This document shows, piece by piece, positions 4,181-60,535 of a stretch of DNA of 64,000 bases. The translations under genes and the position numbers were made by a program. The notes beneath the pieces are model-generated. The model was not told the origin of the DNA and made no database searches. It saw only the letters and a program-made list of their open reading frames with translations. Source of the DNA: a virus; the IMG/VR virus record IMGVR_UViG_3300022752_000055, positions 1 through 64,000 of that record; one strand, written 5' to 3'. Position 1 is the stretch's first letter. The number at the start of each line of letters is the position of its first letter.

Positions 4181-4597
4181 TTAACCTCTATTTTGTGGTG
4201 GCCCGAATTTCATATTAAGATATGGTGTAATATCTTTGATTATCATATCATAAACTTTTTTTCCCTCAACACCAATTGTGTTGGTATTTTTCAAATTAAT
4301 TTTATATTCTTTCTGCACTAATGATTTACTATTTTTATTTACACCCCAACCCCATTCACCGGTAGTTGGTTTACAATTTATCCAAATACCATTTTGGTCA
4401 GTAACCTCACCTTTACTCAACGAAAGTACACCATACTTTTCCATCATTTTATCTTCTTTAAATCCTTTTGATGTTAATACATCTCTTAAAGCCGCAAATG
4501 TATGCCATTGTTTTCTTTCATCCGTATTTTGTTCGTTAACAACTCTTCTAACCAATCTTGTTAAATCAGATTCAGTTAATCTTACTATTCTTGCCAT
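4181..4597 (-). CDS. class-A tagged protein, 138 aa
   Basis: Start set at the ATG at 4595-4597, giving MARIVRLTESDLTRLVRR then VVNEQ, a clear class-A N-terminal tag; an in-frame start 27 nt upstream would bury it. By analogy with T4 capsid-targeting peptides, cleavage after VNE at about residue 22 is predicted. The remainder (FAALRDVLTSKGFKED.., TTGEWGWGVNKNSKSL) is a small alpha/beta domain I do not recognise. Preceded by ATATTTAT (4614-4621) and followed by a terminator, so it is a single-gene unit. Confidence 0.85.
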   Translation of the reverse strand: MARIVRLTESDLTRLVRRVVNEQNTDERKQWHTFAALRDVLTSKGFKEDKMMEKYGVLSLSKGEVTDQNGIWINCKPTTGEWGWGVNKNSKSLVQKEYKINLKNTNTIGVEGKKVYDMIIKDITPYLNMKFGPPQNRG

Positions 4598-4613
4598 AAT
4601 ATTAATTTTATAA

Positions 4614-4621
4614 ATAAATAT
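4614..4621 (-). promoter_or_regulatory. ATATTTAT motif
   Basis: On the minus strand, 16 nt before the ATG of the 4181-4597 gene. Confidence 0.45.
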
Positions 4622-4631
4622 CACATAAAAT

Positions 4632-4664
4632 AAAAAAACCCCACCTTATTAGGAATGGGGTTTT
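4632..4664 (-). terminator. terminator after the OmpA-like tagged gene
   Basis: Stem AAACCCCA/TGGGGTTT with A/T runs on both sides; 19 nt past the stop at 4683. Confidence 0.65.
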
Positions 4665-4682
4665 TATCGTTTTTTTTTTATT

Positions 4683-5396
4683 TTAAATTTTCTGTTTTGC
4701 CGAAATCACATTTTTTTTGTCTTTAACTTTTTGATAATCAGAATCACTAAGTTCGAAACAAACAATCCATCTTTTTTCAACAAAAACTTTTTCTTTTTCT
4801 TTTCTTTTATCGGGTGTGATATTCTTACGTACCACAAGGTCATCTTTGGCTTGTATAACGGATAAATCTGTTTTTGAACCTGAAACAACTAATTTAACAA
4901 ATTGTTCAGCATTAGCAGCTGAACTATTTTTTTCAGTTGCGGTACCTACAACAGGTTGTCCCACAGTAAATTTTACATTCGGGAATATATTCTTTACAAT
5001 ATCATAAAAATTATTTGCTCTTCTTTGTGCTAATCCTTTATTATCATATCCTCGACTTTGACCTACCGCGGATGCTCCACCAATAATTTTTATTGATATA
5101 GGGGTTCCTCCCATAGCAGAGTCCAAAGTAGCATTTGATATTGCCGTCATACCTTTTTTAAATTCGGTACTATTTGTATCAATTTTGTCTTCACCATTTT
5201 TAAATAAAGACCCATCCATTTTAATTGTTTGTGATTTTGTTCTTACATCTATTCCTCCAGGTCCGGGTGCACCTAAACCATCCCTCTCACCTCCAAAATA
5301 GTTTGGTTTATCAAACGGAGGTTTAGGTTGTTCGTTAATTACTCTTCTAACCAATCTATTTAAATCAGATTCAGTTAATCTTGTTATTCTTGCCAT
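4683..5396 (-). CDS. class-A tagged protein with OmpA-like domain
   Basis: 237 aa. N-terminus MARITRLTESDLNRLVRR + VINEQ is almost identical to that of the next gene downstream although the rest differs. Predicted cleavage after INE at about residue 22. Residues 75-195 resemble an OmpA-like peptidoglycan-binding fold: SLFKNGEDKIDTNS, ISIKIIGGASAVG and NKGLAQRRANNFYDIVK, the last matching the family's N..L...RA signature. A capsid- or tail-borne peptidoglycan contact role is possible but inferred. No signal peptide is present, unlike cellular OmpA. Confidence 0.85.
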   Translation of the reverse strand: MARITRLTESDLNRLVRRVINEQPKPPFDKPNYFGGERDGLGAPGPGGIDVRTKSQTIKMDGSLFKNGEDKIDTNSTEFKKGMTAISNATLDSAMGGTPISIKIIGGASAVGQSRGYDNKGLAQRRANNFYDIVKNIFPNVKFTVGQPVVGTATEKNSSAANAEQFVKLVVSGSKTDLSVIQAKDDLVVRKNITPDKRKEKEKVFVEKRWIVCFELSDSDYQKVKDKKNVISAKQKI

Positions 5397-5419: not shown

Positions 5420-5429
5420 CACATAATAC

Positions 5430-7994: not shown

Positions 7995-8285
7995 ATGGCA
8001 AAAATTATAAGATTAACTGAAGCTGATTTAACAAGACTTGTTAGAAGAGTTATGAATGAACAAGAAAAAGGAAAAGTTGTACCATGTTCTAAAATTGGAG
8101 TTAAGACAAATGGATATTGTGATTCAATTACTCGAGAAGTTTTATTTGTACAATGTTCGGATTTAGGAGTTAAGACACCAGGGTATTGTGAGCATAAAAC
8201 AAAAAAACCCGTTGTTCAGTGTAGTAAAATTGGTGTTAAACACCCTGGTATTTGTTATAGGGATAATGGTAAAATTTGTAGGTAA
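7995..8285 (+). CDS. class-A tagged protein with three Cys repeats
   Basis: 96 aa. Tag MAKIIRLTEADLTRLVRR + VMNEQ, then three about 20-residue repeats: PCSKIGVKTNGYCD, QCSDLGVKTPGYCE and QCSKIGVKHPGICY. Each has a Cys pair ten residues apart, so after predicted cleavage at MNE|Q the mature product would be a roughly 73-residue array of small loops closed by a disulfide or metal. No known family. Flanked by its own promoter motif and a strong terminator. Confidence 0.85.
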   Translation: MAKIIRLTEADLTRLVRRVMNEQEKGKVVPCSKIGVKTNGYCDSITREVLFVQCSDLGVKTPGYCEHKTKKPVVQCSKIGVKHPGICYRDNGKICR

Positions 8286-11158: not shown

Positions 11159-12529
11159 ATGGATAAAACAAGAAAATTAGTAGAAATTATTGAAAACCGA
11201 AATAAGTTAAAACAAATTAATGAAGGTCCTAGTATGGTTAAACTAAGTAACACTAGTTACCCAAATGTTAAATTTGATAACGACGGAACTAAAAATGATT
11301 ATGTTAACGATGCATTATTAAACGACATAAATAGGGCTGCCCAGGCGGCAGGAATTGTTGCAACAATAACAACCGCAAAAACAGGTCACAACTCTCTTAC
11401 AATTAATGGTCGTCCAAGCAGACATATGACAGGAATGGGTGTTGATGTTGCAATTTTAGATGGGATAGGGTCTGGCGGAGCGACTAATTCACGTAATGGT
11501 ATTGCTAGTTTTAGAGAAAAAGGTAATAACTTAAAAAATGCGTTAGTTTCTATGGGTTATGTGTGGAATGTGGAATCAGGGAACGATAAGGCGGTTCTTT
11601 GGCAAACAGACACCGGAGGAAATCATTACAATCACTTACACATATCTAATAAATCGGGTGAGTCTGAAACTAACCCGAGTAATCAAGAACAAAAACCGGG
11701 AGAAGAACAAAAATCGGGAGAAGAAAAAAAAACAGGTGAAAATTCGTCATCATCTAATTTATCTTCAGTTGCTTCTGACTTAACTAAAAAAGTAAGCGGA
11801 GGTAGAGGGGGTATGCGTTATTCTGATTCAGACACTCTTTTGGCTGACCTTGCAGCAAGTTTTTTAAATATGAAAGAATCTAGAGAATATAGTAATTTTG
11901 GTAAAAATGCTTCCATAGGGGAAAATAAAATTGTATTGCCTTCATCAGATAACACAACAATAGACGCACCAATCTCCGGTAAAATAGTAAAAACAAATCA
12001 ACTAGGGTGTAGAAATGAATTATCAATACTACATGAAGTTAATGGAGAGGAATACTATTTAACGTATTGTGATATAACTAATCCATCAGTTAGTATTGGT
12101 GATAATGTTAGAAGAGGAACAAGATTAGGTTCAATATCAAATGACATCTCAATTTACGTTTTTAATTTATTAGGTCAAAAGTTAGATTTTTTATCGGTTG
12201 GGAAAGAGGAGAAAAAAAATAAAAGAAATAAAGAAGAGAAAAATAAAGAAGTCAAAAAAAAGAAATATAGTAAAGACGATAGTTATACCTATTATGGTTC
12301 AAGTAACAAAAGAAGATACTCTGACCCAGACGATTTTGTTGTTGACGCATTAAAGTTGCCGTTTAAAGTTTTAAGTAGTTTAACTAAGGGAGGGTTAAAG
12401 TCCGTAACAAGCAAAAAAGTTGACGATGAAGAAACAGGTAAACCATTTGAACTTCCGGGTGGATTAAAATCCGTAACAAGTAAAAAAGTTGATGAGGAAA
12501 TTGAAAGAATTAAAAGATTATTAAAATAA
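11159..12529 (+). CDS. two-domain peptidase-like protein (M15-like + M23-like)
   Basis: 456 aa from the ATG at 11159; the longer open frame would add nine residues that precede the promoter motif. The N-terminus KLVEIIENRNKLKQINEGPS carries INE|G. Residues about 60-170 resemble an M15 D-Ala-D-Ala carboxypeptidase: SRHMTGMGVDVAI (H and D ligands) and NHYNHLHIS (HxH). After a Glu/Lys linker, about 240-340 resembles an M23/LytM beta domain (IDAPISGKIV, GDNVRRGTRLGSI), but I see no intact HxGxD, so this half may be inactive. The tail carries a duplicated GGLKSVTSKKVD segment. Likely virion peptidoglycan-processing protein. Confidence 0.85.
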   Translation: MDKTRKLVEIIENRNKLKQINEGPSMVKLSNTSYPNVKFDNDGTKNDYVNDALLNDINRAAQAAGIVATITTAKTGHNSLTINGRPSRHMTGMGVDVAILDGIGSGGATNSRNGIASFREKGNNLKNALVSMGYVWNVESGNDKAVLWQTDTGGNHYNHLHISNKSGESETNPSNQEQKPGEEQKSGEEKKTGENSSSSNLSSVASDLTKKVSGGRGGMRYSDSDTLLADLAASFLNMKESREYSNFGKNASIGENKIVLPSSDNTTIDAPISGKIVKTNQLGCRNELSILHEVNGEEYYLTYCDITNPSVSIGDNVRRGTRLGSISNDISIYVFNLLGQKLDFLSVGKEEKKNKRNKEEKNKEVKKKKYSKDDSYTYYGSSNKRRYSDPDDFVVDALKLPFKVLSSLTKGGLKSVTSKKVDDEETGKPFELPGGLKSVTSKKVDEEIERIKRLLK

Positions 12530-14337: not shown

Positions 14338-14372
14338 AAGGTCAGGAATCTGACCTTATTTTTTTATATTGA
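14338..14372. terminator. bidirectional terminator
   Basis: Perfect stem AAGGTCAG/CTGACCTT with GAAT loop followed by ATTTTTTT; ends clpP and overlaps the convergent GIY-YIG stop. Confidence 0.8.
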
Positions 14373-15064: not shown

Positions 15065-15068
15065 ACCT

Positions 15069-15938: not shown

Positions 15939-17099
15939 TTAGTTATTGTTATCAAGTCTATAAGCATTTTGTCTTTCAGGAGGTGTTCCAATTGGATTTT
16001 CTTTACCTGAGAAGAAATCAACGATATCGTCCATTTTTCTCGAACCACCCATAAATCCTAAATTCCAATTACCTTCACATTTTCCTTGTGATTTTTTCAA
16101 ATCTTTAGAACAGAATCTTCTTTTACATGCTTGGGCGTTTCTTTTCATTTCTTGGAATGCGGTTGTTGTTGCGTCAACACCATTCTCATATCCTCTCATA
16201 TATTCAACCAAAACTCCTTTACAATCTCTTTTATCAACCTGTTTAAATTCTGATTCTTGACTTACAACACCTCTCGATGCGGTTCTAACATCTTTCAAAC
16301 ATGCCGGGTTAACAAATATCTTCAAACCTTCTTTAACACCATATTCCGCACCACCAACAACATCAACTAAACTCCATTTAGGTTCCACTAAAGGTTGCTC
16401 GGCTTGGAATGCCCAACAAAAACTTCCGGGGTTATTGGGGTCTACTTTATCTTTGGTTCTTTGAAATCTATTTCCATATCTATTAATTAAAAAATCAATA
16501 ACTTCTGTTTGTTCTGCAGAGCCAGCTCCTCCAATAGTTTTTCCTTTTTTCTTAAAATAATCTTTACCATTAATTTTTTTCTGTTCGTAGAATTGAGGGT
16601 CAGAAAGGTTTATATTTGCAGCTTTGGCTTCATCATATGTCATCCATCCACCGGCTTTTATTTCTTGGTCGCTAGCGGTTGCTTTGAAATCGTCTGATTG
16701 TGCGGTTAACCCGGCACATTTCCATTTATATGTACCTTTTTTAACCCAAGAATTATTTGCCACCTTTGTTCCATCATATACATCAAATGTCATATCATTT
16801 TTGTATACTAGAACATCACCTGTAACATATTTAGGTTTATTAGTAACAGCACTTAATGAACCGTCTTTAGTTGCGGTAATTTTAATTGCCCTATTTCCAC
16901 CTACCTTGACAAAAGACCCATTTTTTAATGTGGGACAAACACTTTTAGCCTTTGTTATAAGGTCATTACCTGTTGGCGCAGCAAGTTGTTCGGATAAAAA
17001 TATTTTTTCTTCTAATTTATTTTCTAAAATAAATTTATAATCTTTATGTTGTTTTAATATTTCATTTTTTTCCGATTCTGATACTATAAATTTTTTCAT
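15939..17099 (-). CDS. class-D tagged protein, 386 aa
   Basis: MKKFIVSESEKNEILKQHKD begins a class-D leader that ends FLSE|QLAAPTG near residue 45. The mature part is beta-rich (VKVGGNRAIKITATKDGSLS, GTYKWKCAGL) with several Cys and a helical C-terminus (AFQEMKRNAQACKRRFCSKD). No family recognised. Six nt from the 230-aa protein gene. Confidence 0.8.
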   Translation of the reverse strand: MKKFIVSESEKNEILKQHKDYKFILENKLEEKIFLSEQLAAPTGNDLITKAKSVCPTLKNGSFVKVGGNRAIKITATKDGSLSAVTNKPKYVTGDVLVYKNDMTFDVYDGTKVANNSWVKKGTYKWKCAGLTAQSDDFKATASDQEIKAGGWMTYDEAKAANINLSDPQFYEQKKINGKDYFKKKGKTIGGAGSAEQTEVIDFLINRYGNRFQRTKDKVDPNNPGSFCWAFQAEQPLVEPKWSLVDVVGGAEYGVKEGLKIFVNPACLKDVRTASRGVVSQESEFKQVDKRDCKGVLVEYMRGYENGVDATTTAFQEMKRNAQACKRRFCSKDLKKSQGKCEGNWNLGFMGGSRKMDDIVDFFSGKENPIGTPPERQNAYRLDNNN

Positions 17100-17124: not shown

Positions 17125-18324
17125 TTATGCTACTTCTTCATCGTCAGTTGATGTTGTTGTTGTTTTTGTTGACGTTGTTGATGTTTGATTTAAATCGGTA
17201 TCCTCATCTTCATCATCCTCGAATGGTGTTGAGGTTGTTGTAGTTTTATTACAAACTTTGTCATAGGAATCCTGTGTAATCTCTGTTCCGGAAACACCCG
17301 CTCTTTCCAAATACCCTTGTGTAATAGTTCCAAAATTACCTGTTTGATACTTAGCAGGCATATTTAAACAAGCTTGAATTTCTTTTATTTTATTATTTTT
17401 ACAATTTTGACTAATTGGGAATGTTTCAGGACATGAAGTGTATTTACTTCCTCCTCCTGTACCACCACCTGTACCACCACCACCACCATCAACCGGAGGT
17501 GTATCAGGAAATTCCGGTGGTAATGGGTCTCCTGAATCTTTCATAAAGTACCATATAACAGCACCAGCAATACCTAATCTTAACGCCCACTTTCTTATAT
17601 CTTTCCAAGGCCAATTTTTTACTTTTTTAAATTTTTCTAAAAAAGATGAATCATTTTTTAAGTTATTTGCAGTATTTTTAGATTCTTTCGCAACTGCTTC
17701 AGCATCTTTAGTTACGGTACCCGCATCTTTAGTTACGGTACTCGCATCTTTAGTTACAGTACTCGCATCTTTAGTTACAGTACCTGTATTTTTAGTTACA
17801 GTACTCGCATCTTTAGTTACAGTACCTGCAGCAACTTCCAAATCTTTATAATTTTTAACAACCGCATTTGCAGTTGCTTCAGGGTATCCACTGTTTTTTA
17901 ATAATGCTAAACGGTCTGCTTCACTTGCATTTTTAAACTGCGTTGCAACCTTATCTTTATTATTATTAAATAAATTCTTACTGTAAGATTCCACAGCACC
18001 ATCAAACAAACCTGGATTTGCATTTTTAATTCTACTACCATCTTTTAAAACATCTTTAGTGAAGGCTGCTAAATCTTTTGCAGCTGCTTTACCAGCGGCT
18101 GCATTCTTAATAAAATTTTCCGCATTAGTGGCGTTACCTTTAAATATAGAAAAATCTTTTACTGTGCTTGAAAGGGCTTTAATGTCACCACCAAGAAGTT
18201 TTACAAAAAGTCCTCTTGATTGTTCGTTTATAAAATTAATTTCATAATTCTCACTAAGTGTTAAATTAGTATCATACGAACTTAATAATTTAAATTTTTT
18301 TATTTCCTCGTTTAACGTATTCAT
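17125..18324 (-). CDS. repeat-containing membrane protein with C-terminal PG-binding-like domain
   Basis: Start chosen at MNTLNEEIKKFKLLSSYD (18322-18324); an upstream in-frame start would overlap the preceding gene. Leader ends NFINE|QSRG. Domains: helical N-part, then at about 190-235 six or more heptad-length TVTKDAS repeats, a TM helix (LGIAGAVIWYFM), a Gly-rich linker and a C-terminal segment IKEIQACLNMP..TGNFGTIT that resembles peptidoglycan-binding repeats. The tail is Thr/Asp-rich. Architecture suggests a virion or injected membrane-spanning protein. Confidence 0.8.
   Translation of the reverse strand: MNTLNEEIKKFKLLSSYDTNLTLSENYEINFINEQSRGLFVKLLGGDIKALSSTVKDFSIFKGNATNAENFIKNAAAGKAAAKDLAAFTKDVLKDGSRIKNANPGLFDGAVESYSKNLFNNNKDKVATQFKNASEADRLALLKNSGYPEATANAVVKNYKDLEVAAGTVTKDASTVTKNTGTVTKDASTVTKDASTVTKDAGTVTKDAEAVAKESKNTANNLKNDSSFLEKFKKVKNWPWKDIRKWALRLGIAGAVIWYFMKDSGDPLPPEFPDTPPVDGGGGGTGGGTGGGSKYTSCPETFPISQNCKNNKIKEIQACLNMPAKYQTGNFGTITQGYLERAGVSGTEITQDSYDKVCNKTTTTSTPFEDDEDEDTDLNQTSTTSTKTTTTSTDDEEVA
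17711..17830 (-). repeat. tandem 21-bp repeats encoding TVTKDAS
   Basis: About six copies of GTTACNGTACTNGCATCTTTA on the plus strand, 21 bp each, in frame within the 17125-18324 gene; copies differ by few bases, so recent slippage or unequal crossover is likely. Confidence 0.85.
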
Positions 18325-32397: not shown

Positions 32398-32401
32398 AAT
32401 C

Positions 32402-32409
32402 ATAAATAT
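32402..32409 (-). promoter_or_regulatory. ATATTTAT motif
   Basis: 4 nt before the ATG of the 96-aa class-D gene. Confidence 0.45.
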
Positions 32410-44793: not shown

Positions 44794-44801
44794 ATAAATA
44801 T
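44794..44801 (-). promoter_or_regulatory. ATATTTAT motif
   Basis: 5 nt before the ATG of the 188-aa gene; it overlaps the last base of the upstream stop codon. Confidence 0.4.
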
Positions 44802-45199
44802 TAACCCGCAATTGTTTTAACGGGAAGTTCAAATGTTTTCTCAAACCATATTTTAAATCCTGGCTTCCATTCTCCTCTACCAAAAGTTGAATTTAAAGTT
44901 TCAACAAGGTCATTTCTAATAATTTCAATTAGTGGTGCCTTTTCCGCCCAATTATTAATCATATTAATGTTACTTTCGGGGTCAAGACTTTCATAATATT
45001 CTTTAAATATATATTCAAAAAGTGGTTCGTATTCAATATTATTTTTATAATCATCATCATAAAACATAATGAGATTATCATCCATACTCTCTGTTTCATA
45101 GTTAAATGAAGATTCATTATATATCCCATCTTTAAACAAATGTTCCAAGAATAAAACAACCACCTTATTTAATCTATTTTCTGTAATAATGTATTTCAT
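44801..45199 (-). CDS. class-B tagged protein, 132 aa
   Basis: MKYIITENRLNKVVVLFLEH; body ends GFKIWFEKTFELPVKTIAG, the same W(F)xxxF-strand end as the 113-aa protein at 38465. Contains YDDDYKNNIEYEPLFEYIFK. Member of the small tagged body family. Confidence 0.8.
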   Translation of the reverse strand: MKYIITENRLNKVVVLFLEHLFKDGIYNESSFNYETESMDDNLIMFYDDDYKNNIEYEPLFEYIFKEYYESLDPESNINMINNWAEKAPLIEIIRNDLVETLNSTFGRGEWKPGFKIWFEKTFELPVKTIAG

Positions 45200-45845: not shown

Positions 45846-46391
45846 TTATAGATATTTGTGCCCTTGTTTAACGTTTTGAGGACTTGGTTCATCTTCTGGT
45901 TGTGCTTGATGCATAATTGGTGGTAATTTTTTACACCAATTTGCCTCAATAGAATCCACCAAACCTTTACTTAAAGTACCATGATGAGTAATTCCGGATT
46001 TAAAAGAATCAATATTTTTCATTGAAACAAATTCAGCTTCCCTAGTTATTGGAAGGTCTTTTTCAGGTATTGAAGAAGTTTTACATTTATAGATTATGGT
46101 AAAATCTATGTTATCTACGCTAGGGTTAAAACCTCCACCGTCGGCCAACCTACCTTTCTTAGCAGTAATTGATACCATTCTTGGTGTGTCGTATAACTCA
46201 AATTTTCCGGAAATATTAGTTATCATATATTGAATAATATCTTTACCCATAAAAAATGTTGATGTTGCATCTTTTAATTCAGCATTTAAATTATCATTTA
46301 AACTCTTAACATCTATATCTTGTTCCATAATAATTCTTCTAACCAATCTTGTTAAATCATTTTCTGTTAATCTTACAATTCTTTTTACCAT
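45846..46391 (-). CDS. class-A tagged protein, 181 aa
   Basis: MVKRIVRLTENDLTRLVRR + IIME|QDID tag. Body: beta-rich with FELYDTPRMVSITAKKGR and FTIIYKCKTSSIPEKDLP; no known family. Terminator 20 nt past the stop, ATATTTAT before the start: single-gene unit like 4181-4597. Confidence 0.82.
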   Translation of the reverse strand: MVKRIVRLTENDLTRLVRRIIMEQDIDVKSLNDNLNAELKDATSTFFMGKDIIQYMITNISGKFELYDTPRMVSITAKKGRLADGGGFNPSVDNIDFTIIYKCKTSSIPEKDLPITREAEFVSMKNIDSFKSGITHHGTLSKGLVDSIEANWCKKLPPIMHQAQPEDEPSPQNVKQGHKYL

Positions 46392-47075: not shown

Positions 47076-47663
47076 TTATTTTGATTTCATATACTTAGCA
47101 TATCCTTTCCGGATTTTATTGGTGAAATGTTTTGAAAGTTCAAAAAATCCTTCAACATCATCGACCTCACCATTTTCATCTTCATACATAGTTAAAGTAC
47201 GCCACTCAATCTCCCCTCTATAATCCTTATAATCTTCGGCGTCAAATTCATTGGGGGTGGTTTCAGATATTGCAGTATCTAAAAACTCTTCAAAAATTTT
47301 AATTCTCCTTCTATAAAAAGTATCAACGGATTCAGTTATATCATCGTCATCATAAAATTCCATAACCCCATCATAATAACTTTCAATATCATCCCAATAG
47401 GTTTTTAAAATATATTCCATAAGTTCATCAAGTTCTTTGGGGGTTAAATCTAAACCACACATATCAACAACTTTTAAAACAATTTCATCAGCATACTCGT
47501 CTAAACTATATTCTTCAGGGTCAGTCTCAGTAAGAGAATCATTAACATATTCATCAATGTTTTCCATTCTTCTCTTTATGAATAAACTCATATCTTCATT
47601 TATAATCTTTTTAACAATTCTATTTAAATCCGATTCAGTTAATCTTACTATTCTGTTTGCCAT
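47076..47663 (-). CDS. class-A tagged protein with internal duplication, 195 aa
   Basis: MANRIVRLTESDLNRIVKK + IINE|D tag. The body repeats a unit: RRMENIDEYVNDSLTETDPE (about 30) and RRRIKIFEEFLDTAISETTP (about 120), the second preceded by DITESVD, which looks like a relict class-B tag (ITE). The same RRR..I..FLD..L..T.P core is the whole body of the class-B tagged 47755-48027 protein. So a body family appears with different tags. Confidence 0.82.
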   Translation of the reverse strand: MANRIVRLTESDLNRIVKKIINEDMSLFIKRRMENIDEYVNDSLTETDPEEYSLDEYADEIVLKVVDMCGLDLTPKELDELMEYILKTYWDDIESYYDGVMEFYDDDDITESVDTFYRRRIKIFEEFLDTAISETTPNEFDAEDYKDYRGEIEWRTLTMYEDENGEVDDVEGFFELSKHFTNKIRKGYAKYMKSK

Positions 47664-47754: not shown

Positions 47755-48027
47755 TTAACAATCTTCCTGTGAATTTATATAATATTGTTTTATATATTCT
47801 TCCTTATATTGTTTTATATAATCAATAATATCATCACCATTAAGATTATTAAAATTAAACAAAATCAAAGCAATTTTTAAATCCTCCATCACCCCAAGAT
47901 AAAAATGAGAATCATTTGAATAATCACAAGGGCTAGTCGCATCTAATACCGTATCCAAAAATTTATCAATAAAATGTAATCTTCTTCTAAGTGAAAGATT
48001 TTGTTCTTCTGTAATAATATACCTCAT
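47755..48027 (-). CDS. class-B tagged protein, 90 aa
   Basis: MRYIITEEQNLSLRRRLHFI: tag followed at once by RRRLHFIDKFLDTVLDATSP, homologous to both halves of the 195-aa class-A gene next door. C-terminal YIKQYKEEYIKQYYINSQED helix. Unknown activity. Confidence 0.8.
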   Translation of the reverse strand: MRYIITEEQNLSLRRRLHFIDKFLDTVLDATSPCDYSNDSHFYLGVMEDLKIALILFNFNNLNGDDIIDYIKQYKEEYIKQYYINSQEDC

Positions 48028-52783: not shown

Positions 52784-53140
52784 TTATTTCTCTATATTAT
52801 TTTTATAATACTCCGCAATCTTATCGTAATACATTGTTTTAAAAAACTCTCTTAGTTCCTCTTCCTCATCATCTGTAATAATCATTTCCGGTTCTAATTC
52901 TCCTTCATCCCAATTTTCAAATATAGGGGAAATGTTATCAATATAAAAACCATCAATAACACTATCAATAAACCACTCAATACCTTTCTCTTTTAATCTT
53001 GTTTTGTAATAATTAAAAGTCCATATTGTTGATTCAAGAATAAGTTCATCAATGTCATTCAATCTTCTTACCACCATGTTGATGAGTTTTCTATCAACTT
53101 CTTCCTTTAATACTTTTCTTATTATTTGTTGTATACTCAT
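52784..53140 (-). CDS. class-C tagged protein, 118 aa
   Basis: MSIQQIIRKVLKEEVDRKLI: class-C tag with VLKE|E. The following VVRRLNDIDELILES again resembles the RRR..ID..L body. C-terminal EFFKTMYYDKIAEYYKNNIE. So this body occurs with tags A, B, C and none. Confidence 0.78.
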   Translation of the reverse strand: MSIQQIIRKVLKEEVDRKLINMVVRRLNDIDELILESTIWTFNYYKTRLKEKGIEWFIDSVIDGFYIDNISPIFENWDEGELEPEMIITDDEEEELREFFKTMYYDKIAEYYKNNIEK

Positions 53141-53697
53141 TTCTCTATGTTATTTCCCCCGCCATCTAGTTTATCTGTAAATCCCATTAACTTGTCAAAT
53201 GCCGGGTGTAATGATATCGGTTCCTTCTTTGTATCTCTCATTGCATCCCACGTGCTAGGTTTAACCTTCATATGGTTTTGAACCAAGTACTTTATCTCAT
53301 CAATATCCGTTCCATCAAATGTTAATATCCAATCCTTAAATTGTTCCACATAATTCGTAGATTTGTTCTCGTGCCCGTATGCCGTTGGTTCCCCCGTTTT
53401 TGGATTAATACCATATGTATCCATCTTCCCCAAGTCATGGAATAGTGCCGCCATAATCATATTGACATCATCAGGATAGTGATGATATGCCCTCTTTATA
53501 ACAACGAGTATATGTTTTAAACTATTTCCCTCCGGATGCCACTTCGGGTTTTGCTTTGCTCCCCATTGCTTAAATAACAACTTCTTTAATTCTTCCGGTA
53601 AAGTCCTAATTAACTCATTTGGCGTTGCAGGCAATTTTTCCTCACATATAAGGTTAATAACTTGTTTTATTCTCTGTATGTTTTCTTGTAGGTTCAT
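53137..53697 (-). CDS. class-C tagged HD-domain phosphohydrolase
   Basis: 186 aa. MNLQENIQRIKQVINLICE|E leader. HD domain: His in SLKHILVVIKRAYHH, HD in ALFHDLGKMD, His in YGHENKS and a late Asp in GFTDKLDGGG. Metal-dependent hydrolase of nucleotides, cyclic nucleotides or RNA 2',3'-cyclic phosphates. If packaged it would act early after injection, e.g. on a signalling nucleotide; inference. Confidence 0.85.
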   Translation of the reverse strand: MNLQENIQRIKQVINLICEEKLPATPNELIRTLPEELKKLLFKQWGAKQNPKWHPEGNSLKHILVVIKRAYHHYPDDVNMIMAALFHDLGKMDTYGINPKTGEPTAYGHENKSTNYVEQFKDWILTFDGTDIDEIKYLVQNHMKVKPSTWDAMRDTKKEPISLHPAFDKLMGFTDKLDGGGNNIEK

Positions 53698-54143
53698 ATC
53701 TTAATTATTAATACATTTGGTGTTATTCCTATTGCCGCTGCGGTGCATAATCTTGTATTACCCGCAACTAAATGATATCTATTTCCAAACTGAATTATCA
53801 TAGGTGGATTATAATCACCCGATTCCAAACTCTTTTTTAATTTGTTTGGGTTTGTTTTATTATACTTCTTTGCAATTTTTTCCACCGATTTTATATCTCC
53901 TTTATCTATTTCATTTGACTCCGTATTTTCCAACTTGGACCATATTGACTTTGTTAGTTTCTTTGGTTCCGCATTTTTAAATTTTTCTTTAACTTCCTTA
54001 ACCGAAATATCAATATCTTCATCCCTTGATAAATCCTGAACAGCCCTTTCAATCTCATCCATTTCTGAATTGATATATGATTTGGTGGATTCATTAATCC
54101 CCATCATCTGTTTAATCCTATGTATGTTTTCTTGTAAGTTCAT
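53694..54143 (-). CDS. class-C tagged ParB/sulfiredoxin-like protein
   Basis: 149 aa. MNLQENIHRIKQMMGINE|ST leader. C-terminal 50 residues LKKSLESGDYNPPMIIQFGN, YHLVAGNTRLCTAAAIG are a ParB/Srx-like nucleotide-binding core (the GxTR...A box). ParB-like domains may act as CTPases, nucleases or kinases. Overlaps the HD gene by 4 nt: an operon of tagged enzymes. Confidence 0.8.
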   Translation of the reverse strand: MNLQENIHRIKQMMGINESTKSYINSEMDEIERAVQDLSRDEDIDISVKEVKEKFKNAEPKKLTKSIWSKLENTESNEIDKGDIKSVEKIAKKYNKTNPNKLKKSLESGDYNPPMIIQFGNRYHLVAGNTRLCTAAAIGITPNVLIIKI

Positions 54144-54144: not shown

Positions 54145-54561
54145 TTACTTTTTTTTCTTTACACAATTTGGATATCTTTTACCAAACATTGTTTTCATCC
54201 CCTTTTGGGTATATCCCGCCCAACATCTTTCAGTTATTTCACCTTCATTCTGCTCTTCTTTACGAGGTTTATCTAGTTCGTTAACAGATTTTACAAATCT
54301 ACGACATTTATCACTAACTCCACCCTTTTCGTGGTCGGTTATTGATATTTTAACCTTGTTGTAATTTATTGTAATGTTCGGATGATGGTTTTGTTGTTCA
54401 GCTATCTTCGCAACTTTATTAACAAAATCAATTGAATCATTAAACTCTTTGAATTTAAATGTTTTTTCCAATTTTTGCTTTGAGTCACCCCAACCTTTGG
54501 ATTCGTTTACATCCATTACCATTTCCAATAATGCTTGTCTTATATTTTCTTGTAAGTTCAT
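54145..54561 (-). CDS. class-C tagged pterin-dehydratase-like protein with CW-GY tail motif
   Basis: Start at 54559-54561 (MNLQENIRQALLE|MV). Residues 35-90 resemble pterin-4a-carbinolamine dehydratase: FKFKEFNDSIDFVNKVAKIA, then NHHPNITINYNKVKI and TDHEKGGVSD with the conserved His-His-Pro. The C-terminus CWAGYTQKGMKTMFGKRYPN, CVKKKK is a separate short motif seen on other phage proteins. 138 aa. Enzymatic or transcription-modulating role unknown. Confidence 0.82.
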   Translation of the reverse strand: MNLQENIRQALLEMVMDVNESKGWGDSKQKLEKTFKFKEFNDSIDFVNKVAKIAEQQNHHPNITINYNKVKISITDHEKGGVSDKCRRFVKSVNELDKPRKEEQNEGEITERCWAGYTQKGMKTMFGKRYPNCVKKKK

Positions 54562-54594: not shown

Positions 54595-55014
54595 ATGAAA
54601 TATATAATAACTGAGGAACAATTAAAAGGTATTAACAAAACAATTATTAAACTGATTGATACTGAAGGTATTTTTAAGGCTATTGATGTTGTTGGTGATT
54701 ATGATACCCTTAAAGAACTATTGGGTGATTATGAAATACCTAGACAACTTAAGATTGATACTATAAAAGAATTTATGAGTCAGAGAGCAGCAACCGGATT
54801 TCACCTCGGTGAATTTGATGAAGAACCAATACCTTATTTTGAAAATAATGATGGCTATCATCAAATTGAATATTTGGGACCATCAAAAGCAATAATTAAT
54901 GTGTGGGGTGGTTATAATGGTCAAACTGATTTGGGTGAATATGGAGTATCTTATGGAGATTTACCTGAAAAGTCATTAGATGACATAATCGAAATGTTAA
55001 TCAACCATTACTAA
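54595..55014 (+). CDS. class-B tagged protein, 139 aa
   Basis: MKYIITEEQLKGINKTIIKL; body with YDTLKELLGDYEIPRQLKID and IINVWGGYNGQTDLGEYGVS. First of seven tandem plus-strand genes, most with the same N-terminal tag. Stop overlaps the next start (TAATG). Confidence 0.82.
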   Translation: MKYIITEEQLKGINKTIIKLIDTEGIFKAIDVVGDYDTLKELLGDYEIPRQLKIDTIKEFMSQRAATGFHLGEFDEEPIPYFENNDGYHQIEYLGPSKAIINVWGGYNGQTDLGEYGVSYGDLPEKSLDDIIEMLINHY

Positions 55015-55397
55015 TGAAATATATAATAGACGATTTTAGTGAAGAGCAATTAATGAAAATTATTCGTAAATTTGTTCGTCACATATACGGAAAAGATTTA
55101 ACTATGGTTGAGGATAGTGAAAGATATATTAAATTCTTTTCAGTTGGACCGGTACCACCATACCATAGAAATATGGCGGGTCGCTTATGGGTTTATGATG
55201 ATAGATTAATAAACATAATTATGGACTTTTTTTCAACCGATTACGACCAAGCACTTGGTTTGGTTGCATTCTATTTCTCAAACAAATATGACATTAAAAT
55301 AATGGATGCCAAAGTTCCATCTCACGTATTTTTTGGTAAAATAGATTATTCACGATTTGACGATGAGAATTACCATATTGAAGATGATGAAGATTAA
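55014..55397 (+). CDS. class-B-like tagged protein, 127 aa
   Basis: MKYIIDDFSEEQLMKIIRKF: tag with an insertion after MKYII. Body GRLWVYDDRLINIIMDFFST then YFSNKYDIKIMDAKVPSHVF follows the family pattern (Asp-rich helix, W/F helix, end strand). Confidence 0.78.
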   Translation: MKYIIDDFSEEQLMKIIRKFVRHIYGKDLTMVEDSERYIKFFSVGPVPPYHRNMAGRLWVYDDRLINIIMDFFSTDYDQALGLVAFYFSNKYDIKIMDAKVPSHVFFGKIDYSRFDDENYHIEDDED

Positions 55398-55399: not shown

Positions 55400-55732
55400 A
55401 TGAAATATATTATAACAGAAAATAGTTTAAGGAGAGTTCAGTTTAAGTATTTGGATTACTTATTTGAGGGTATGCATGTAATTAAAATGCTTTCACCGGA
55501 TGATAATATATTTTCAGGGCCTAATGCAATATTTTGGAAAAAAAATGATAGTATATTATTGGTACTTAGAATTCGCGAAAAAAATAAATTAGAAGTTACA
55601 TATCCAATTTGGGAAGATATATCCAATATGTTTTCATTGGATTATTATGAAACTCAGGAACTTATGGAAGAATGGGCGGAACAACGTTTGGGGGTGGGAA
55701 AAGTCAAAGCCGCATCGGTTGATTTTTTTTAA
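55400..55732 (+). CDS. class-B tagged protein, 110 aa
   Basis: MKYIITENSLRRVQFKYLDY; body homologous to the 99-aa protein at 37280-37579 (WKKNDSILLVLRI, IWEDISNMFSLDYYETQELM, EEWAEQR). Shows that the body persists when the tag is replaced. Confidence 0.8.
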   Translation: MKYIITENSLRRVQFKYLDYLFEGMHVIKMLSPDDNIFSGPNAIFWKKNDSILLVLRIREKNKLEVTYPIWEDISNMFSLDYYETQELMEEWAEQRLGVGKVKAASVDFF

Positions 55733-55744: not shown

Positions 55745-56044
55745 ATGAAATACATTATAACGGAAGAACAAAACTATTATTTAAGAAGATTACGTATTAT
55801 TGATAATTTAATTAAAAGTTCTCTTGAAATGTTTGATTTATGGGGAATTAAAAAAATAGATGTTGATTATATGATTAAATTTCTCACAACAGATGTTACT
55901 GAATCTTATTTTTTTAAATTCAGTGACGACATTTATGTTGGCGGTGAGGAATATGATGAATTAACCGATTTTGTTGAATCGTATTTAAATAGTAGTTGGA
56001 GAGATAAACTTGAAAAAATAATAAAAAGTAAGAAAGGAAAATGA
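55745..56044 (+). CDS. class-B tagged protein, 99 aa
   Basis: MKYIITEEQNYYLRRLRIID followed by NLIKSSLEMFDL: same RR..IDNLI body type as 47755-48027. Ends in a Lys-rich tail. Overlaps the next gene by 4 nt. Confidence 0.8.
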   Translation: MKYIITEEQNYYLRRLRIIDNLIKSSLEMFDLWGIKKIDVDYMIKFLTTDVTESYFFKFSDDIYVGGEEYDELTDFVESYLNSSWRDKLEKIIKSKKGK

Positions 56045-56352
56045 AATACGTTATAACTGAAGAACAACAAAAAAGTTTAAAAAACCATATGTTAGAACTT
56101 TTAAATTATAGTTTTAAAGATAGTAATATTGTTTGTGAAATAAAAGTAACCGATGTTGAAGAAGATGATGATGATTATAACGACGGATTAAGATATGATA
56201 TTTACGTTTTCATTAACTCCTCGTTCACTAGAGCTGTCGGCATTTACGGATATAAAGTTGCAACACAAAGAAAAATAGATTCCTTAATGGAAGATTGGTT
56301 TGGATTAAATAAAAACGAATATTACGTTTCAATTTCCGCTAAAGATTGTTAA
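56041..56352 (+). CDS. class-B tagged protein, 103 aa
   Basis: MKYVITEEQQKSLKNHMLEL; strands CEIKVTDVEEDDDDYNDGLR and YDIYVFINSSFTRAV, then helix KIDSLMEDWFGL and end strand YYVSISAKDC. Family body with W(F)GL end. Confidence 0.8.
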   Translation: MKYVITEEQQKSLKNHMLELLNYSFKDSNIVCEIKVTDVEEDDDDYNDGLRYDIYVFINSSFTRAVGIYGYKVATQRKIDSLMEDWFGLNKNEYYVSISAKDC

Positions 56353-56353: not shown

Positions 56354-56731
56354 ATGAAATACATTATAACTGAAGAACAAAATTTAAGATTATTCAAAAT
56401 AATGGAGAATCTTATGTTAGAAAAATTTCCTGAACTTGAATTTCCTTTAGTAAAAAAGAATATTCCATCAATAAGTAATCGTGGATATGGCTCATCTTTA
56501 GATGACTATTATCTAATTACAACATCATACAAAGATGAAGATGGTGAAACTTGGTTTAAAGAATTTGATGGTAGAGACCTTTACCAAGATTCCAAATGGG
56601 AAGTTAATGATAAATTAGAATTACTTCTTGATACGTTTGATGAAGAGTTTTTTATGGATTTCGTCAAACATTATTTTAACATAGACCTTAGAGAAAAAGG
56701 TAATAAAAAATATGATTGGGTTTTTAGATAA
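56354..56731 (+). CDS. class-B tagged protein, 125 aa
   Basis: MKYIITEEQNLRLFKIMENL; YYLITTSYKDEDGETWFKEF and end FMDFVKHYFNIDLREKGNKK. Same architecture as neighbours; sequence divergence is large, so the paralogues are old. Confidence 0.8.
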   Translation: MKYIITEEQNLRLFKIMENLMLEKFPELEFPLVKKNIPSISNRGYGSSLDDYYLITTSYKDEDGETWFKEFDGRDLYQDSKWEVNDKLELLLDTFDEEFFMDFVKHYFNIDLREKGNKKYDWVFR

Positions 56732-56740: not shown

Positions 56741-57100
56741 ATGAAATACATTATAACAGAAGACAAATTAAAAAAGTTTCTAAAAAGACAATTTGGAGTT
56801 GATTTGACCGGTGATGTTGAAATGATTACTTCAGTTCATCAAATTCCTTCAGTATTTGCTAGATTCTTCAGCACAAGTGAAATTACTCGTCATTTGAACC
56901 ATTATGGACCAATGTATACAGTAAGAATAAATAAGACTGGTGAAACGTTTTTAATTCAGGATAAAGGTGGTAATGAGTTGTATATTTATACAAGCCTTGG
57001 TTATAGAATTAATGAAGAAATTTTTTTTGAAAGGATTGGAATGGAACCTATTATATCTGTTATGGATTTGATAGACCAATATTATAAAGAGGAAGATTAA
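56741..57100 (+). CDS. class-B tagged protein, 119 aa
   Basis: MKYIITEDKLKKFLKRQFGV; strands YTVRINKTGETFLIQDKGG and a C-terminal helix ISVMDLIDQYYKEED. Last gene of the class-B operon; convergent overlap with the minus-strand class-C operon. Confidence 0.8.
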   Translation: MKYIITEDKLKKFLKRQFGVDLTGDVEMITSVHQIPSVFARFFSTSEITRHLNHYGPMYTVRINKTGETFLIQDKGGNELYIYTSLGYRINEEIFFERIGMEPIISVMDLIDQYYKEED

Positions 57101-57564
57101 ACGTAAACGGGCACATTATTCTTTTCTTCTTCAGTTGGTGGAAATGCATAATATACGTTAAATAAACTATAGTGTGGTTCAAAACCTATATTTTCGGCTA
57201 ACTCCTCAATTTTTTGACTTAAAGCATATGGTTGTCCTTGATAACTTTTATCTATAAAACCTCTATCAATCTCACTTCCGTAATATAAAAACGTCTCTTC
57301 TTTTCTTGAATAATTACCCCAATTCTTACTTAGTTTCGTAAAGTATTCAGGTTTGATTTCTATTAGTATTCTTGCACCCCAAGTGTGTTTAGTTAATTCC
57401 CGATGGTGTTCCGTCTCTTCTTTTAATTCAATATAATAAACTCCCTCAACCCAAGGATAATCTCCTTTGTTTAAGATAATTTTATTTATCATCTTACCTA
57501 AAACTTCCTTTGATTGAGAATCGTCCTCTCTTAATACTTTTCTTATGGTTTCTCTTAAATTCAT
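57097..57564 (-). CDS. class-C tagged protein, 155 aa
   Basis: MNLRETIRKVLRE|DDSQ; body with ARILIEIKPEYFTKLSKNWG and IDRGFIDKSYQGQPYALSQK plus NVYYAFPPTEEEKNN. Unknown family. One-nt overlap with the next upstream gene. Confidence 0.8.
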   Translation of the reverse strand: MNLRETIRKVLREDDSQSKEVLGKMINKIILNKGDYPWVEGVYYIELKEETEHHRELTKHTWGARILIEIKPEYFTKLSKNWGNYSRKEETFLYYGSEIDRGFIDKSYQGQPYALSQKIEELAENIGFEPHYSLFNVYYAFPPTEEEKNNVPVYV

Positions 57565-58484
57565 TATGATTTTTTCTTAATTAATGAGAAGTAATATCTC
57601 ATAGTGTTAAACTTATCATCAGGTTCTACTATAAGTAATGGTTTATTATCATACATTGAATCCAATTTTTCTTTGATATCAACCCAATCTAAACTAGGAA
57701 ACCAAGTAGCATAGTTTTTTAATAAATCGTTCCAAGTTTTAAATGAATCACTAAAACCATTACCCCCGTTTCTGTCAGCATGTTTCCAAAATATATATGT
57801 GGTTCCTTCTTCGTCACCACTCTCATTATAAAAATTTGAAATATATTCCGCAATATCACTACCATACTTTTCCTTTAAATAATTTGCAATTTTTTTTTCT
57901 GCATCATGAAACTCATCATTATCTAAATGTGTATGTGTTGAATCAAGTATTTCATATGCTGTGTTCTTACAAGCCCACCAAACAACTACCGCAACTACTT
58001 TTTCTAATTTAAACGATTGAATTGCAAACTTTCTAAGATAATTAATTATCTCTTCATCTGTATATCTATTTCTTCTTCTTACAAATAAAGGTATTTCACT
58101 TTCTTCTTTTATTATTGATTCATCTATATTTTTACAATTTGGACGTGAACTACCATAGATATCAACTATAATCCCAAATGTATCAATTATTAAATCTTGA
58201 AGTTCATTCATAATTTTTTCTTCTTTGTTATGAACTGCCATAGTCTTCGGCCAATTTTTTGAGCCATGCCCCGAATCAAAATAAAGTGTAACTTTGAACC
58301 TTTGATACCTTTCTCCTGAATTTTTTGTTGCAAACTTTCCTAACTCTAACTTATAATCACAGATGTATTCTTTTTCTTCACTACTCCTTAAAAAATACTC
58401 TATCAGTTTTTTGAGTGGTACTGATAAATTTTTCTTTTTTTCCTCTTCTTTTAATACTTTTCTTATGGTTTCTTGTAGATTCAT
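57564..58484 (-). CDS. class-C tagged two-module protein, 306 aa
   Basis: Start at 58482-58484 (MNLQETIRKVLKE|EEKK). Residues 15-115 form one body (YKLELGKFATKN, TLYFDSGHGSKNW); near 118-135 the stretch NIDESIIKE|ESEIPLFVRR looks like a second, decayed tag; the rest is another domain (VVAVVVWWACKNTAYEILDS, YIFWKHADRNGGNGFSDSF). Appears to be a fusion of two tagged genes. Confidence 0.75.
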   Translation of the reverse strand: MNLQETIRKVLKEEEKKKNLSVPLKKLIEYFLRSSEEKEYICDYKLELGKFATKNSGERYQRFKVTLYFDSGHGSKNWPKTMAVHNKEEKIMNELQDLIIDTFGIIVDIYGSSRPNCKNIDESIIKEESEIPLFVRRRNRYTDEEIINYLRKFAIQSFKLEKVVAVVVWWACKNTAYEILDSTHTHLDNDEFHDAEKKIANYLKEKYGSDIAEYISNFYNESGDEEGTTYIFWKHADRNGGNGFSDSFKTWNDLLKNYATWFPSLDWVDIKEKLDSMYDNKPLLIVEPDDKFNTMRYYFSLIKKKS

Positions 58485-58488
58485 ATTA

Positions 58489-59310
58489 TTAATAACTTTC
58501 TCCCGTTCCTTCATAAATTAATTTTATACATTTGGATGGTATATTTTCAAATGTAAGTATATGATATTCATAATCCCCACCTCTATAATGTTTATCTTTA
58601 TACCAAGTAACTTCAGCACAATCTGTATTAATCAACCAAACATCATCATCCCAACTAGAATCAAACCAATAATTTTCATTTTCAGAGTCAGTCGCAAAAA
58701 TTGCTGGTTCACATTCTTCCTCACTAAAATTTTGTGAATAAGTTTTATAACAATCACCTACCGATGCTTGTAATCCTGTTTCAAGAATATTTTCTCTCCA
58801 AATAGGGTTTGATTTATGAATAACAAATCTATTAGGAAAATATTCATCACCCGCTGGCGAATATGTCTCTTCCTTTAATATTCTTCTTATGGTTTCTTGT
58901 AGATTATTTTTGTCTATTAACATTTCGTTAGGGTCAACACCCAATTCTTCTAAACTCCACAATATTTGGTTATATTTACCATCATAAATCTTTTTAACTA
59001 AATCATTTCTGTATGGTTCAGGGTTTGCGGTTTTTGTAATTGCATTGTAAATCCAACTATCCGGTTTCGCATCTAAAATATTTTTTAGTGTAATTAAATG
59101 AACGTATGGTTCTTTTAACCATTCTTTATAAGTTTTGGAGCTTGGGTCACCATCAATTGCTGGTGTTACAAACACCGCACCCACACTTATAAGTTTGTCA
59201 ACATCAAACGGGAGCCTATCCTCGTAAGGAATAGTATTTCTAGTCTCATCATAGTCATAAACTCTATCGTCTTCCTTTAATATTCTTCTTATGGTATGTC
59301 TTATATTCAT
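58489..59310 (-). CDS. fusion of two class-C tagged modules, 273 aa
   Basis: N-terminal tag MNIRHTIRRILKE|DDRV and a second full tag NNLQETIRRILKE|ETYS at about residues 133-147. Module 2 (FVIHKSNPIWRENILETGLQ, AIFATDSENENYWFDSSWDD, DVWLINTDCAEVTWYKD, FENIPSKCIKLI) has the layout of ADP-ribosyltransferase-like folds (H..., ...W.ID..., ...I). That assignment is weak. Cleavage at both tags would release two proteins. Confidence 0.8.
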   Translation of the reverse strand: MNIRHTIRRILKEDDRVYDYDETRNTIPYEDRLPFDVDKLISVGAVFVTPAIDGDPSSKTYKEWLKEPYVHLITLKNILDAKPDSWIYNAITKTANPEPYRNDLVKKIYDGKYNQILWSLEELGVDPNEMLIDKNNLQETIRRILKEETYSPAGDEYFPNRFVIHKSNPIWRENILETGLQASVGDCYKTYSQNFSEEECEPAIFATDSENENYWFDSSWDDDVWLINTDCAEVTWYKDKHYRGGDYEYHILTFENIPSKCIKLIYEGTGESY

Positions 59311-60200
59311 TAAGTGTTAACTTTTATCATATTATAAAAATAATTGGTAATTCCTTCAAAACTTTTTAAATTCTTTTGTTTCAAATCATCTCTTGTTTTG
59401 GAAATTAAATTTTCAAAATGTCGTAAAGGCACGCTACTATACATCGCGTTTATTTTTCTATCATCATCCTTATCTATTAAACCAATTTTAATAAATTCCC
59501 TTAATTTCCTTGTCGCAAATTCATCGGCAATTATCTCAACTTCTTTCATTGCTTTGGCAGCGTCCTCAACACTTACCTCACCCAAATAACATTCATACAT
59601 TTTATCATCACCATATTTTTTATATTGATATTGGTGTGCGATTTCGTGAGCCACCACAAATAAAAAAGACGATAATGGGTAATTAAAAATTGTTTCATTA
59701 AAGAGAACCCCATTATGTAACGCCAACCCCATCGCCGGAAATTTAAATTTGGAAACTTCTATCTTTTTGCAGTTTGAATTCTCTATAAATGATTTAATTT
59801 CGTCTATATATATTTCTGTTTCAGGATAAGTTGACATAATCCTATATAAGAATGGTCTAATTCCTTCCGTTTCTTCCTTTAATACTTTTCTTGTGGTTGA
59901 TTCTTTTATATTAACCGGAGTATCACAATCTAATCTTATTACGATTAGTTCAAGATGTGGTAAATAATCATTGATATTTTTACTTACAATATTTTCCATG
60001 TCGTGATTATGATAATCACTTTGAAGAATAACAAGATAATTTTTAATAATTTCACCATCTCCTGACTCATAGTCAATTACCCTAACTTGGACTCCGCATA
60101 AATGCTTAATATCCATACTCAAGACAATATCTTCAATATATTTGCACCACCTATCCTCCTTAAACTTATTTACCTGTGCTTCTGTTATAATGTATTTCAT
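59310..60200 (-). CDS. fusion: class-B module plus class-C-tagged zinc metallopeptidase
   Basis: Start at 60198-60200 (MKYIITEAQVNKFKEDRWCK). After a small body (GVQVRVIDYESGDGEIIKNY), an internal tag TTRKVLKE|ETEG lies at about 98-110. Module 2 carries FLFVVAHEIAHQYQYKKYG (HExxH zincin) with VEIIADEFATRKL providing the third ligand Glu. A class-C tag buried inside a class-B tagged protein fits modular shuffling. Peptidase would be released by cleavage. Confidence 0.82.
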   Translation of the reverse strand: MKYIITEAQVNKFKEDRWCKYIEDIVLSMDIKHLCGVQVRVIDYESGDGEIIKNYLVILQSDYHNHDMENIVSKNINDYLPHLELIVIRLDCDTPVNIKESTTRKVLKEETEGIRPFLYRIMSTYPETEIYIDEIKSFIENSNCKKIEVSKFKFPAMGLALHNGVLFNETIFNYPLSSFLFVVAHEIAHQYQYKKYGDDKMYECYLGEVSVEDAAKAMKEVEIIADEFATRKLREFIKIGLIDKDDDRKINAMYSSVPLRHFENLISKTRDDLKQKNLKSFEGITNYFYNMIKVNT

Positions 60201-60217
60201 TTTATTAATAGTTAAAA

Positions 60218-60535
60218 TTATACGCACTCATCTTCTATTGTATATCTATAATATTCTTTAACATCCTTCCCCATTTTTTCCTTAATAACATTTTTTATAT
60301 ATAAACAAAGGGGAGCAAATAATTTATTTTGCCAATCATTAAAGAAGTTTAACAAATAAGTTTCGGCAGAACTTGTTGATACCACTTCTAAATACTCGTC
60401 CTCAGTTTTAAATTCGCAAGGATAGTAAAGGTCAGTACCCTCATCAACTATCTCCCTAATCCACACTAAATCATCTCTAGTTCTACGAAGAATTTGTAAC
60501 ATTATTTCTTGAGATTCCGTTATTATAATTTTCAT
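60218..60535 (-). CDS. class-B tagged protein, 105 aa
   Basis: MKIIITESQEIMLQILRRTR then DDLVWIREIVDEG: class-B tag on an RR..D.VWIRE body related to the RRR..I family. First gene of the 57097-60535 minus-strand operon, with ATATTTAT upstream (60541-60548). Confidence 0.8.
   Translation of the reverse strand: MKIIITESQEIMLQILRRTRDDLVWIREIVDEGTDLYYPCEFKTEDEYLEVVSTSSAETYLLNFFNDWQNKLFAPLCLYIKNVIKEKMGKDVKEYYRYTIEDECV

Follow-up and report, generated by a model that had tools for sequence, protein, structure and literature searches.

The closest described counterpart of the system considered here is found in bacteriophage T4, where a capsid-targeting sequence (CTS) of 10 residues is enough for packaging, gp21 cuts after L/I-x-E, the propeptides measure 7 amino acids (aa) in Alt and 10–19 aa in the internal proteins (IPs), and both Alt and the IPs enter the host (PMC9026906). 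Ip2 and Ip3 of T4 block type IV restriction enzymes, and the varied sets of T-even relatives were found by their signal (PMC12373910). The DNA examined in this study is a stretch of 64,000 nucleotides (the window), comprising bases 1–64,000 of the 72,126-base IMG/VR virus record IMGVR_UViG_3300022752_000055, in which many proteins with unrelated bodies begin with one of a few shared N-terminal tags. I will argue that these tags are very probably capsid-targeting propeptides, i.e., elements that would dock a protein in the assembling head, be trimmed off by a protease of the S77 family, and so provide cargo that is ejected with the DNA.

Genes were called greedily as the longest open reading frames (ORFs), without curation, giving 129 genes in the record, and hidden Markov models (HMMs) built from the tags were run against the N-terminal 60 aa encoded by each of 845 genes called in 26 contigs, with a cut-off of E<=0.01. 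This profile search, a check that an earlier interpretation of the DNA made from its letters only (the sequence-only reading) had proposed, found tags on 188 proteins, including 37 of the 129 genes of the window's record. Decoys came out near zero: no class matched more than one of 356 internal segments, and the 845 shuffled N-termini gave no match at all. A test that used no seed gave a similar picture, with 74 pairs of non-homologous proteins in the record having a common N-terminal 18-mer, whereas internal segments gave no such pair and shuffled ends gave 1; the control phages crAss001, SPO1, and T4 (57 kb) gave 4, 1, and 0 pairs, respectively.

The sequence-only reading had listed 26 tagged starts in three sets and spoken of about thirty such proteins with unrelated bodies. 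All 26 starts exist in frame as listed (7 in class A, 12 in class B, and 7 in class C), although at 4597, 54561, 58484, and 60200 the tag starts at an internal Met, the listed ORF beginning upstream. The three sets are all present, and classes D and E must be added to make five. The set characterized by MNLQE has to be redrawn, since its members at 53697 and 54143 belong to class E, and the tag at 53140 reads MSIQQIIRKVLKEE. The profile search raises the count to the 37 given above, with tags outside the earlier list at, for example, 15939, 17125, 18350, 19582, 21315, 23156, 32107, 33226, 33985, 38465, and 55014. The bodies are indeed unrelated, the 37 proteins falling into 35 body clusters by BLASTP.

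The consensus sequences of the first three classes are MxxIxRLTExDLxRLVxRVIxE (class A), MKYIITEEQ (class B), and MNLQETIRKVLKE (class C). Class D has an EEEKxxI...H element followed by LxEQ, and class E has NExIxRIKxLM followed by [IL]xE, an end that was judged by inspection of its members. The point at which conservation stops is sharp in two of the classes. Among the 40 distinct sequences of class A, column 20 is I or L in 36, column 21 is free, column 22 is E in 36, column 23 is Q, D, E, or S, and the information beyond is near 0 bits. In class C (n = 13), the end is L-x-E-[ED], with the same drop in information. The class A tag ends in [LI]xE in 33 of 40 sequences (shuffled mean 7.7, maximum 16). 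Within residues 1–45 the motif is found in 93% of the proteins with a tag, twice the 46% seen in those without, and there is no excess further in (34% and 44%, respectively, within residues 50–95). Since the definition of a class already contains the motif, what carries weight is that conservation ends sharply, that the middle position is free, and that unrelated classes agree. In the T4 genome, the corresponding sequences read MELITE in Alt, MAKINELLRE in gp24, and FLTE in gp23, with gp24 cut as MAKINELLRE|S and gp23 as FLTE|A (the bar marks the cut). The likeness of the tags to those of Alt and gp24 was judged by eye. Two further N-termini in the window, MKISEFFLSE|G at 8360–9823 (+) and MIDLRKILEE|E at 10954–11139 (+), are closer to the classical T4 CTS than are the five classes and were not counted.

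A tag might also serve to dock a protein to a part of the virion (scaffold, baseplate, or tail) and remain uncut, or be cut in some classes only, the terminal Glu being a helix cap. An N-terminal docking motif common to different tail spikes is found in RaK2 and the viunalikeviruses (PMC3622015), and the conservation of class B does run past the supposed cut. Permanent docking does not account, however, for the fact that classes A and C, unrelated to each other, both end in [LI]-x-E-[QED] with the middle position free, matching the cut INE|A expected in the capsid protein, nor for a degenerate internal tag whose docking part has decayed but whose end still reads VLKE|E. I regard this explanation as unlikely. 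The tail-spike motif as such was set aside, there being no tail spike among the tagged bodies with a Pfam match.

The tags are exchangeable between bodies and are found within proteins as well as at their ends. Pterin-4a-carbinolamine dehydratase carries a class C tag in the window and in G002, a class E tag in the relative G025, and a class B tag in G007, G009, and G017; in the window, its Pterin_4a domain begins downstream of the tag. The protein encoded at 55400–55732 resembles an untagged protein of G025 (131974–132828) from residue 8 on, directly after MKYIITE (BLASTP), and an apparent paralogue of it that has no tag lies at 37280–37579 of the window's record. The probable divergent tag of the M23-peptidase protein at 11159–12529 aligns at the N-terminus with a class E tag, ending LME|GP, in the G025 orthologue. 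Tandem precursors occur in the window at 58489–59310 and 59310–60227. The second half of the latter has an HExxH motif and is metallopeptidase-like; in G025 it is a separate gene with its own class C tag (121101–121703), and it is the decayed class C tag inside the window's precursor that retains VLKE|E. In G015 (86460–87383, equivalent to L073 10460–11383), a class B protein is followed by an internal class A tag and then by a sigma-70 family factor, which by its position is possibly packaged and injected cargo.

If shared N-termini were a by-product of recombination, 5' ends of genes having spread as expression cassettes with no role at the level of protein, one would expect likeness in DNA, and some tags are indeed nearly identical in DNA (those of 4181 and 4683 and the two within 58489–59310). 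But pairwise codon differences in class B are mostly synonymous (123 vs. 53 non-synonymous), the sequences just upstream of class B start codons are not alike, internal tags are kept where there is no start codon to carry, and different phage lineages have different tags of the same design. Recombination without function is thus extremely unlikely to be the explanation.

The connection of the tags to the head was sought in 25 relative contigs, picked by a common codon pattern for MKYIITEEQ. Seven of them have both an S77 protease and the capsid protein gp23, and S77 was found in all eight of a further set of records chosen for their capsid gene. The motif His and Ser of the relatives' protease align with those of T4 gp21, and of 27 distinct capsid proteins, all from relatives, 26 have INE|A where T4 gp23 is cleaved. 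Of 30 capsid-gene loci measuring 10 kb or more, 24 have tagged genes close to the capsid gene, and nearly all of these genes belong to class A or class D. Protease, capsid protein, and tagged genes share one head cluster in relatives; every examined tagged record with a head module encodes both an S77 (gp21-type) protease and gp23. The gp21-like prohead protease predicted by the sequence-only reading is therefore present in tag-bearing relatives that have a head module, though it was not found in the 72-kb record itself. The first genes of the window match genes adjoining the head module of G025, and the missing head genes would therefore probably sit just beyond the left end of the window.

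Tag families are not confined to these relatives. A 286,648-base contig from a rumen Bacteroidales bin, which has a short terminal repeat and is probably a complete phage, the 484-kb uncultured phage LR756508, and the cultured Flavobacterium phage immuto each have tag families of their own, several of which adjoin head genes. Two of these profiles had less clean decoys, each matching two internal segments (of 193 and 112, respectively). In LR756508, an intein bearing a LAGLIDADG domain is inserted in the S77 prohead protease (L103 6480–8204), and several tagged proteins with YRGT-like motifs lie directly behind the capsid gene (L103 27696–33575). Their resemblance to Alt-type ADP-ribosyltransferases was seen by eye and was not confirmed by Pfam, and no claim is made of it.

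The mechanism I propose has the tags acting as exchangeable capsid-targeting propeptides of a T4-type head. An N-terminal docking element, either a short helix or an amphipathic helix together with an extended stretch, would bind the core of the assembling prohead; once assembly is complete, the S77 protease would cleave after the Glu of the [L/I]-x-E with which each tag terminates; and the mature cargo, freed inside the head, would probably be ejected with the DNA into the host, like the IPs and Alt of T4. The mechanism as a whole is well supported but indirect, and I give it a high probability. From the sequences I infer that the tags dock to the scaffold and are cleaved in vivo, and that the cargo is present in virions, is injected, and acts in host takeover or counter-defence.

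The tags form charged, amphipathic helices that lack a hydrophobic core. In a single-sequence AlphaFold (AF2) model of the class A protein encoded at 36148–36531, residues 9–25 form a helix, with a predicted local distance difference test score (pLDDT) of 84 over residues 1–10 and 90 over residues 11–20. Shared N-terminal addresses are a general strategy of localisation, and by that analogy the tags could send proteins elsewhere in the infected cell, to a membrane or a phage compartment. Helices of this kind, associated as they are with head genes and with the consensus of a protease, make such a destination the least credible of the alternatives.

Several observations weigh against the capsid-targeting mechanism. 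Searches for the S77 family and for terminase found neither in the window's own 72-kb record, so that the link to head machinery runs via relatives, and S77 was not found in 18 of the 25 tag-bearing contigs. A home-made S77 profile run on 18 contigs gave no match, which is not taken as proof of absence: the five largest of the contigs without S77 also have no convincing match to terminase or tail sheath and so look like fragments, and where this was checked the null result is explained by missing head modules. The tag HMMs found no match in immuto, nor in 57 kb of T4 containing ipI, 21–24, and most of alt; as the tags are lineage-specific, the latter result bears on homology and not on function. 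The head regions of two other phages that have S77, K64-1 and ACG-2014g, show by eye no such expansion, which is therefore not general among T4 relatives. The median isoelectric point of the tagged bodies is 5.6, i.e., they are not basic, unlike the T4 IPs. Lastly, cleavage after [LI]-x-E, as put forward in the sequence-only reading, agrees with classes A and C, where conservation stops right there, but is doubtful for IITE|E: class B is still conserved at Q9 and L13, past IITE, and its cut site, if it is cut at all, is uncertain.

The presence in the window of genes for a ClpA-like ATPase, a ClpP-like protease, and transfer-messenger RNA (tmRNA) brings to mind a different function, namely that the tags mark proteins for proteolysis by phage-encoded ClpA/ClpP, as N-terminal degrons or as adaptor signals. 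G025 and G002 have ORFs matching the ClpAP of the window. However, immuto has N-terminal tag families and its annotation names no Clp gene, and the biology of degrons predicts neither an [LI]xE end nor clustering with capsid genes. It is very unlikely that the tags are degrons.

Nearly all of 96 representative tagged bodies came out as unknown against Pfam and PHROGs. Those with a Pfam match are pterin dehydratase, sigma factor, transglycosylase, L,D-transpeptidase, and hydrolase, and some bodies match PHROG families of tail tape-measure, tail, and baseplate-hub proteins. One protein of G025 (L047 2093–3106) combines a class A tag with peptidoglycan-binding and Tlde1/YkuD L,D-transpeptidase domains and, judging from these, may be a packaged cell-wall enzyme. 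One tagged relative has a weak match to ART-PolyVal. The second body of 58489–59310 appeared like an ADP-ribosyltransferase, but its AlphaFold model (pLDDT 34) was not used, and a wider search with this body found no homologues. The tagged genes and internal tags of the window are collected in Table 1.

Table 1. Tagged genes and internal tags in the window. E is the E-value of the tag HMM unless another profile is named; the bar marks the supposed cut.
Positions	Strand	Tag or feature	Evidence and remarks
4181..4597	-	class A, MARIVRLTESDLTRLVRRVVNE|Q	E 1.7e-15; start at 4597
4683..5396	-	class A, MARITRLTESDLNRLVRRVINE|Q	E 9e-16
7995..8285	+	class A, MAKIIRLTEADLTRLVRRVMNE|Q	E 5e-15
11159..12529	+	M23-peptidase protein, probable divergent tag, end INE|GP	Peptidase_M23 1.4e-6; tag below HMM cut-off
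15939..17099	-	class D, MKKFIVSESEKNEILKQH...	E 1.3e-12
17125..18324	-	class E, MNTLNEEIKKFKLLSSYDTNLTLSE|N	E 1e-13; tag from internal Met, residue 20
18350..19582	-	class D, MKNFNISNKERNLILESHG	E 4.7e-10
19582..20091	-	class E, ...EESIDRIKLMMNYDSSKTLNE|N	E 4.4e-14
21315..22046	-	class D, MNFYSLGQLSNKEKSNILDKH	E 2.1e-10
23156..23776	+	class B, MNFLITESQLKFLVE	E 4.8e-6
30709..31965	-	class A, MKKIIRLTESELVSLVKRTIME|D	E 1.9e-14
32107..32403	-	class D, MIMYISEEEKKQILSKY	E 7.5e-13
33226..33720	-	class D, MNKRFTITEEEKKEIRKNYFFE|Q	E 6.8e-13
33985..34254	-	weak class A, MRKIKITESNLIKIIETAMDLE	E 4.6e-4
36148..36531	-	class A, MSKIIRLTETELIRLVNRIVKE|N	E 3.9e-12
38465..38806	+	class B, MKYLINESKLVKLIGKYIE	E 5.2e-5
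39467..40237	-	class B, VKYIITEQQ, GTG start	E 2e-5
43715..44209	-	class B, MKIIITEEQ	E 8.5e-7
44801..45199	-	class B, MKYIITENR	E 7e-8
45846..46391	-	class A, MVKRIVRLTENDLTRLVRRIIME|Q	E 3.3e-13
47076..47663	-	class A, MANRIVRLTESDLNRIVKKIINE|D	E 7e-13
47755..48027	-	class B, MRYIITEEQ	E 9e-7
52784..53140	-	class C, MSIQQIIRKVLKE|E	E 1.5e-7
53137..53697	-	class E, MNLQENIQRIKQVINLICE|E	E 1.8e-11
53694..54143	-	class E, MNLQENIHRIKQMMGINE|S	E 8e-12
54145..54561	-	class C tag on pterin-4a-carbinolamine dehydratase	Pterin_4a 6.6e-22, ORF residues 39-105
54595..55014	+	class B, MKYIITEEQ	E 9.8e-9
55014..55397	+	class B-like, MKYIIDDFSEEQL	E 5.5e-4
55400..55732	+	class B, MKYIITENS	E 7e-7
55745..56044	+	class B, MKYIITEEQ	E 1.1e-6
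56041..56352	+	class B, MKYVITEEQ	E 1.1e-6
56354..56731	+	class B, MKYIITEEQ	E 7.5e-8
56741..57100	+	class B, MKYIITEDK	E 1.8e-6
57097..57564	-	class C, MNLRETIRKVLRE|D	E 2e-8
57564..58484	-	class C, MNLQETIRKVLKE|E	E 1.4e-9
58489..59310	-	tandem precursor of two bodies, each preceded by a class C tag (the first N-terminal, the second internal)	E 1.8e-8
58870..58908	-	internal class C tag NNLQETIRRILKE|E, residues 135-147 of 58489-59310	E 1.6e-6; no preceding start codon
59310..60200 (ORF 59310-60227)	-	class B tagged precursor	E 7.5e-7
59874..59912	-	NIKESTTRKVLKE|E, decayed class C tag inside the 59310-60227 precursor	cleavage-like end kept (sequence)
60218..60535	-	class B, MKIIITESQ	E 1.8e-4

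Other genes of the window deserve brief mention. The ClpA-like ATPase (1027–3087, +), the ClpP-like protease (13655–14332, +), and tmRNA (7528–7929, +), together with an Hsp20 (471–857, -), make up an unusually full protein quality-control set for a phage fragment. PHROGs labels 13655–14332 as a head maturation protease, and its N-terminus reads as that of a housekeeping ClpP. An untagged protein of 1142 aa with a start like a signal peptide is encoded at 40243–43671 (-), and G025 has a related-looking ORF of 732 aa (101722–103920). Genes for homing endonucleases of the HNH and GIY-YIG types lie at 3080–4018 (-) and 14342–15088 (-).

If the proposed mechanism is correct, a tag together with an [L/I]xE end would be a rule, needing nothing but sequence, by which to name the probable virion-borne, first-entering proteins among the many unknown ones of large environmental phages. 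Since the Ips of T4 found by their signal inhibit type IV restriction enzymes (PMC12373910), the tagged sets would be a pool of candidates for counter-defence or takeover, and the tags would add several natural capsid-loading tags from outside T4. More tentatively, and at odds somewhat short of even, the heads of these phages could be multiplexed delivery vehicles, one virion bringing in dozens of effectors (among them, in certain relatives, a sigma factor and enzymes acting on the cell wall), with the tag classes binding different components of the core and so setting copy number or order, and with cargo genes swapping tags or fusing into precursors split by the protease as host defences change.

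Several known systems share parts of this design. The motif of RaK2 and viunalikevirus tail spikes (PMC3622015) is likewise N-terminal and common to otherwise different virion proteins, but it is a region of about 50 aa with few members, no protease site, and no linkage to head genes. The phiKZ-type giant phage SPN3US (gp245; PMC10052503) also has a large head with many internal, ejected proteins whose N-terminal propeptides are cut behind a Glu motif; there, however, the motif is A-x-E, and the nine substrates mostly have long individual propeptides (111–254 aa) and no shared short tag. The polyvalent proteins of phages and plasmids (PMC5512222) are similar in that effectors are proposed to be delivered along with DNA, but they are multi-domain chains, whereas the proteins here are mostly small and individually tagged. 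Comparable expansion was not found in the searchable literature, outside of which lie most subscription journals and bioRxiv preprints. The nearest likeness is to IPI–III and Alt of T4, where cargo proteins unrelated to one another also begin with short propeptides that end in [L/I]-x-E; in that case they are cut by an S77 protease encoded beside the scaffold and gp23. T4 has four cargo proteins of this type, and its relatives are reported to have at least 10 Ips between them, as compared to the 37 tagged proteins of a 72-kb fragment. What is new with respect to T4 is this much larger number of cargoes, the five classes of tags with sequences of their own, the swaps of tags on one body, the tandem precursors, and the enzyme or sigma-factor domains recognisable in some of the cargo.

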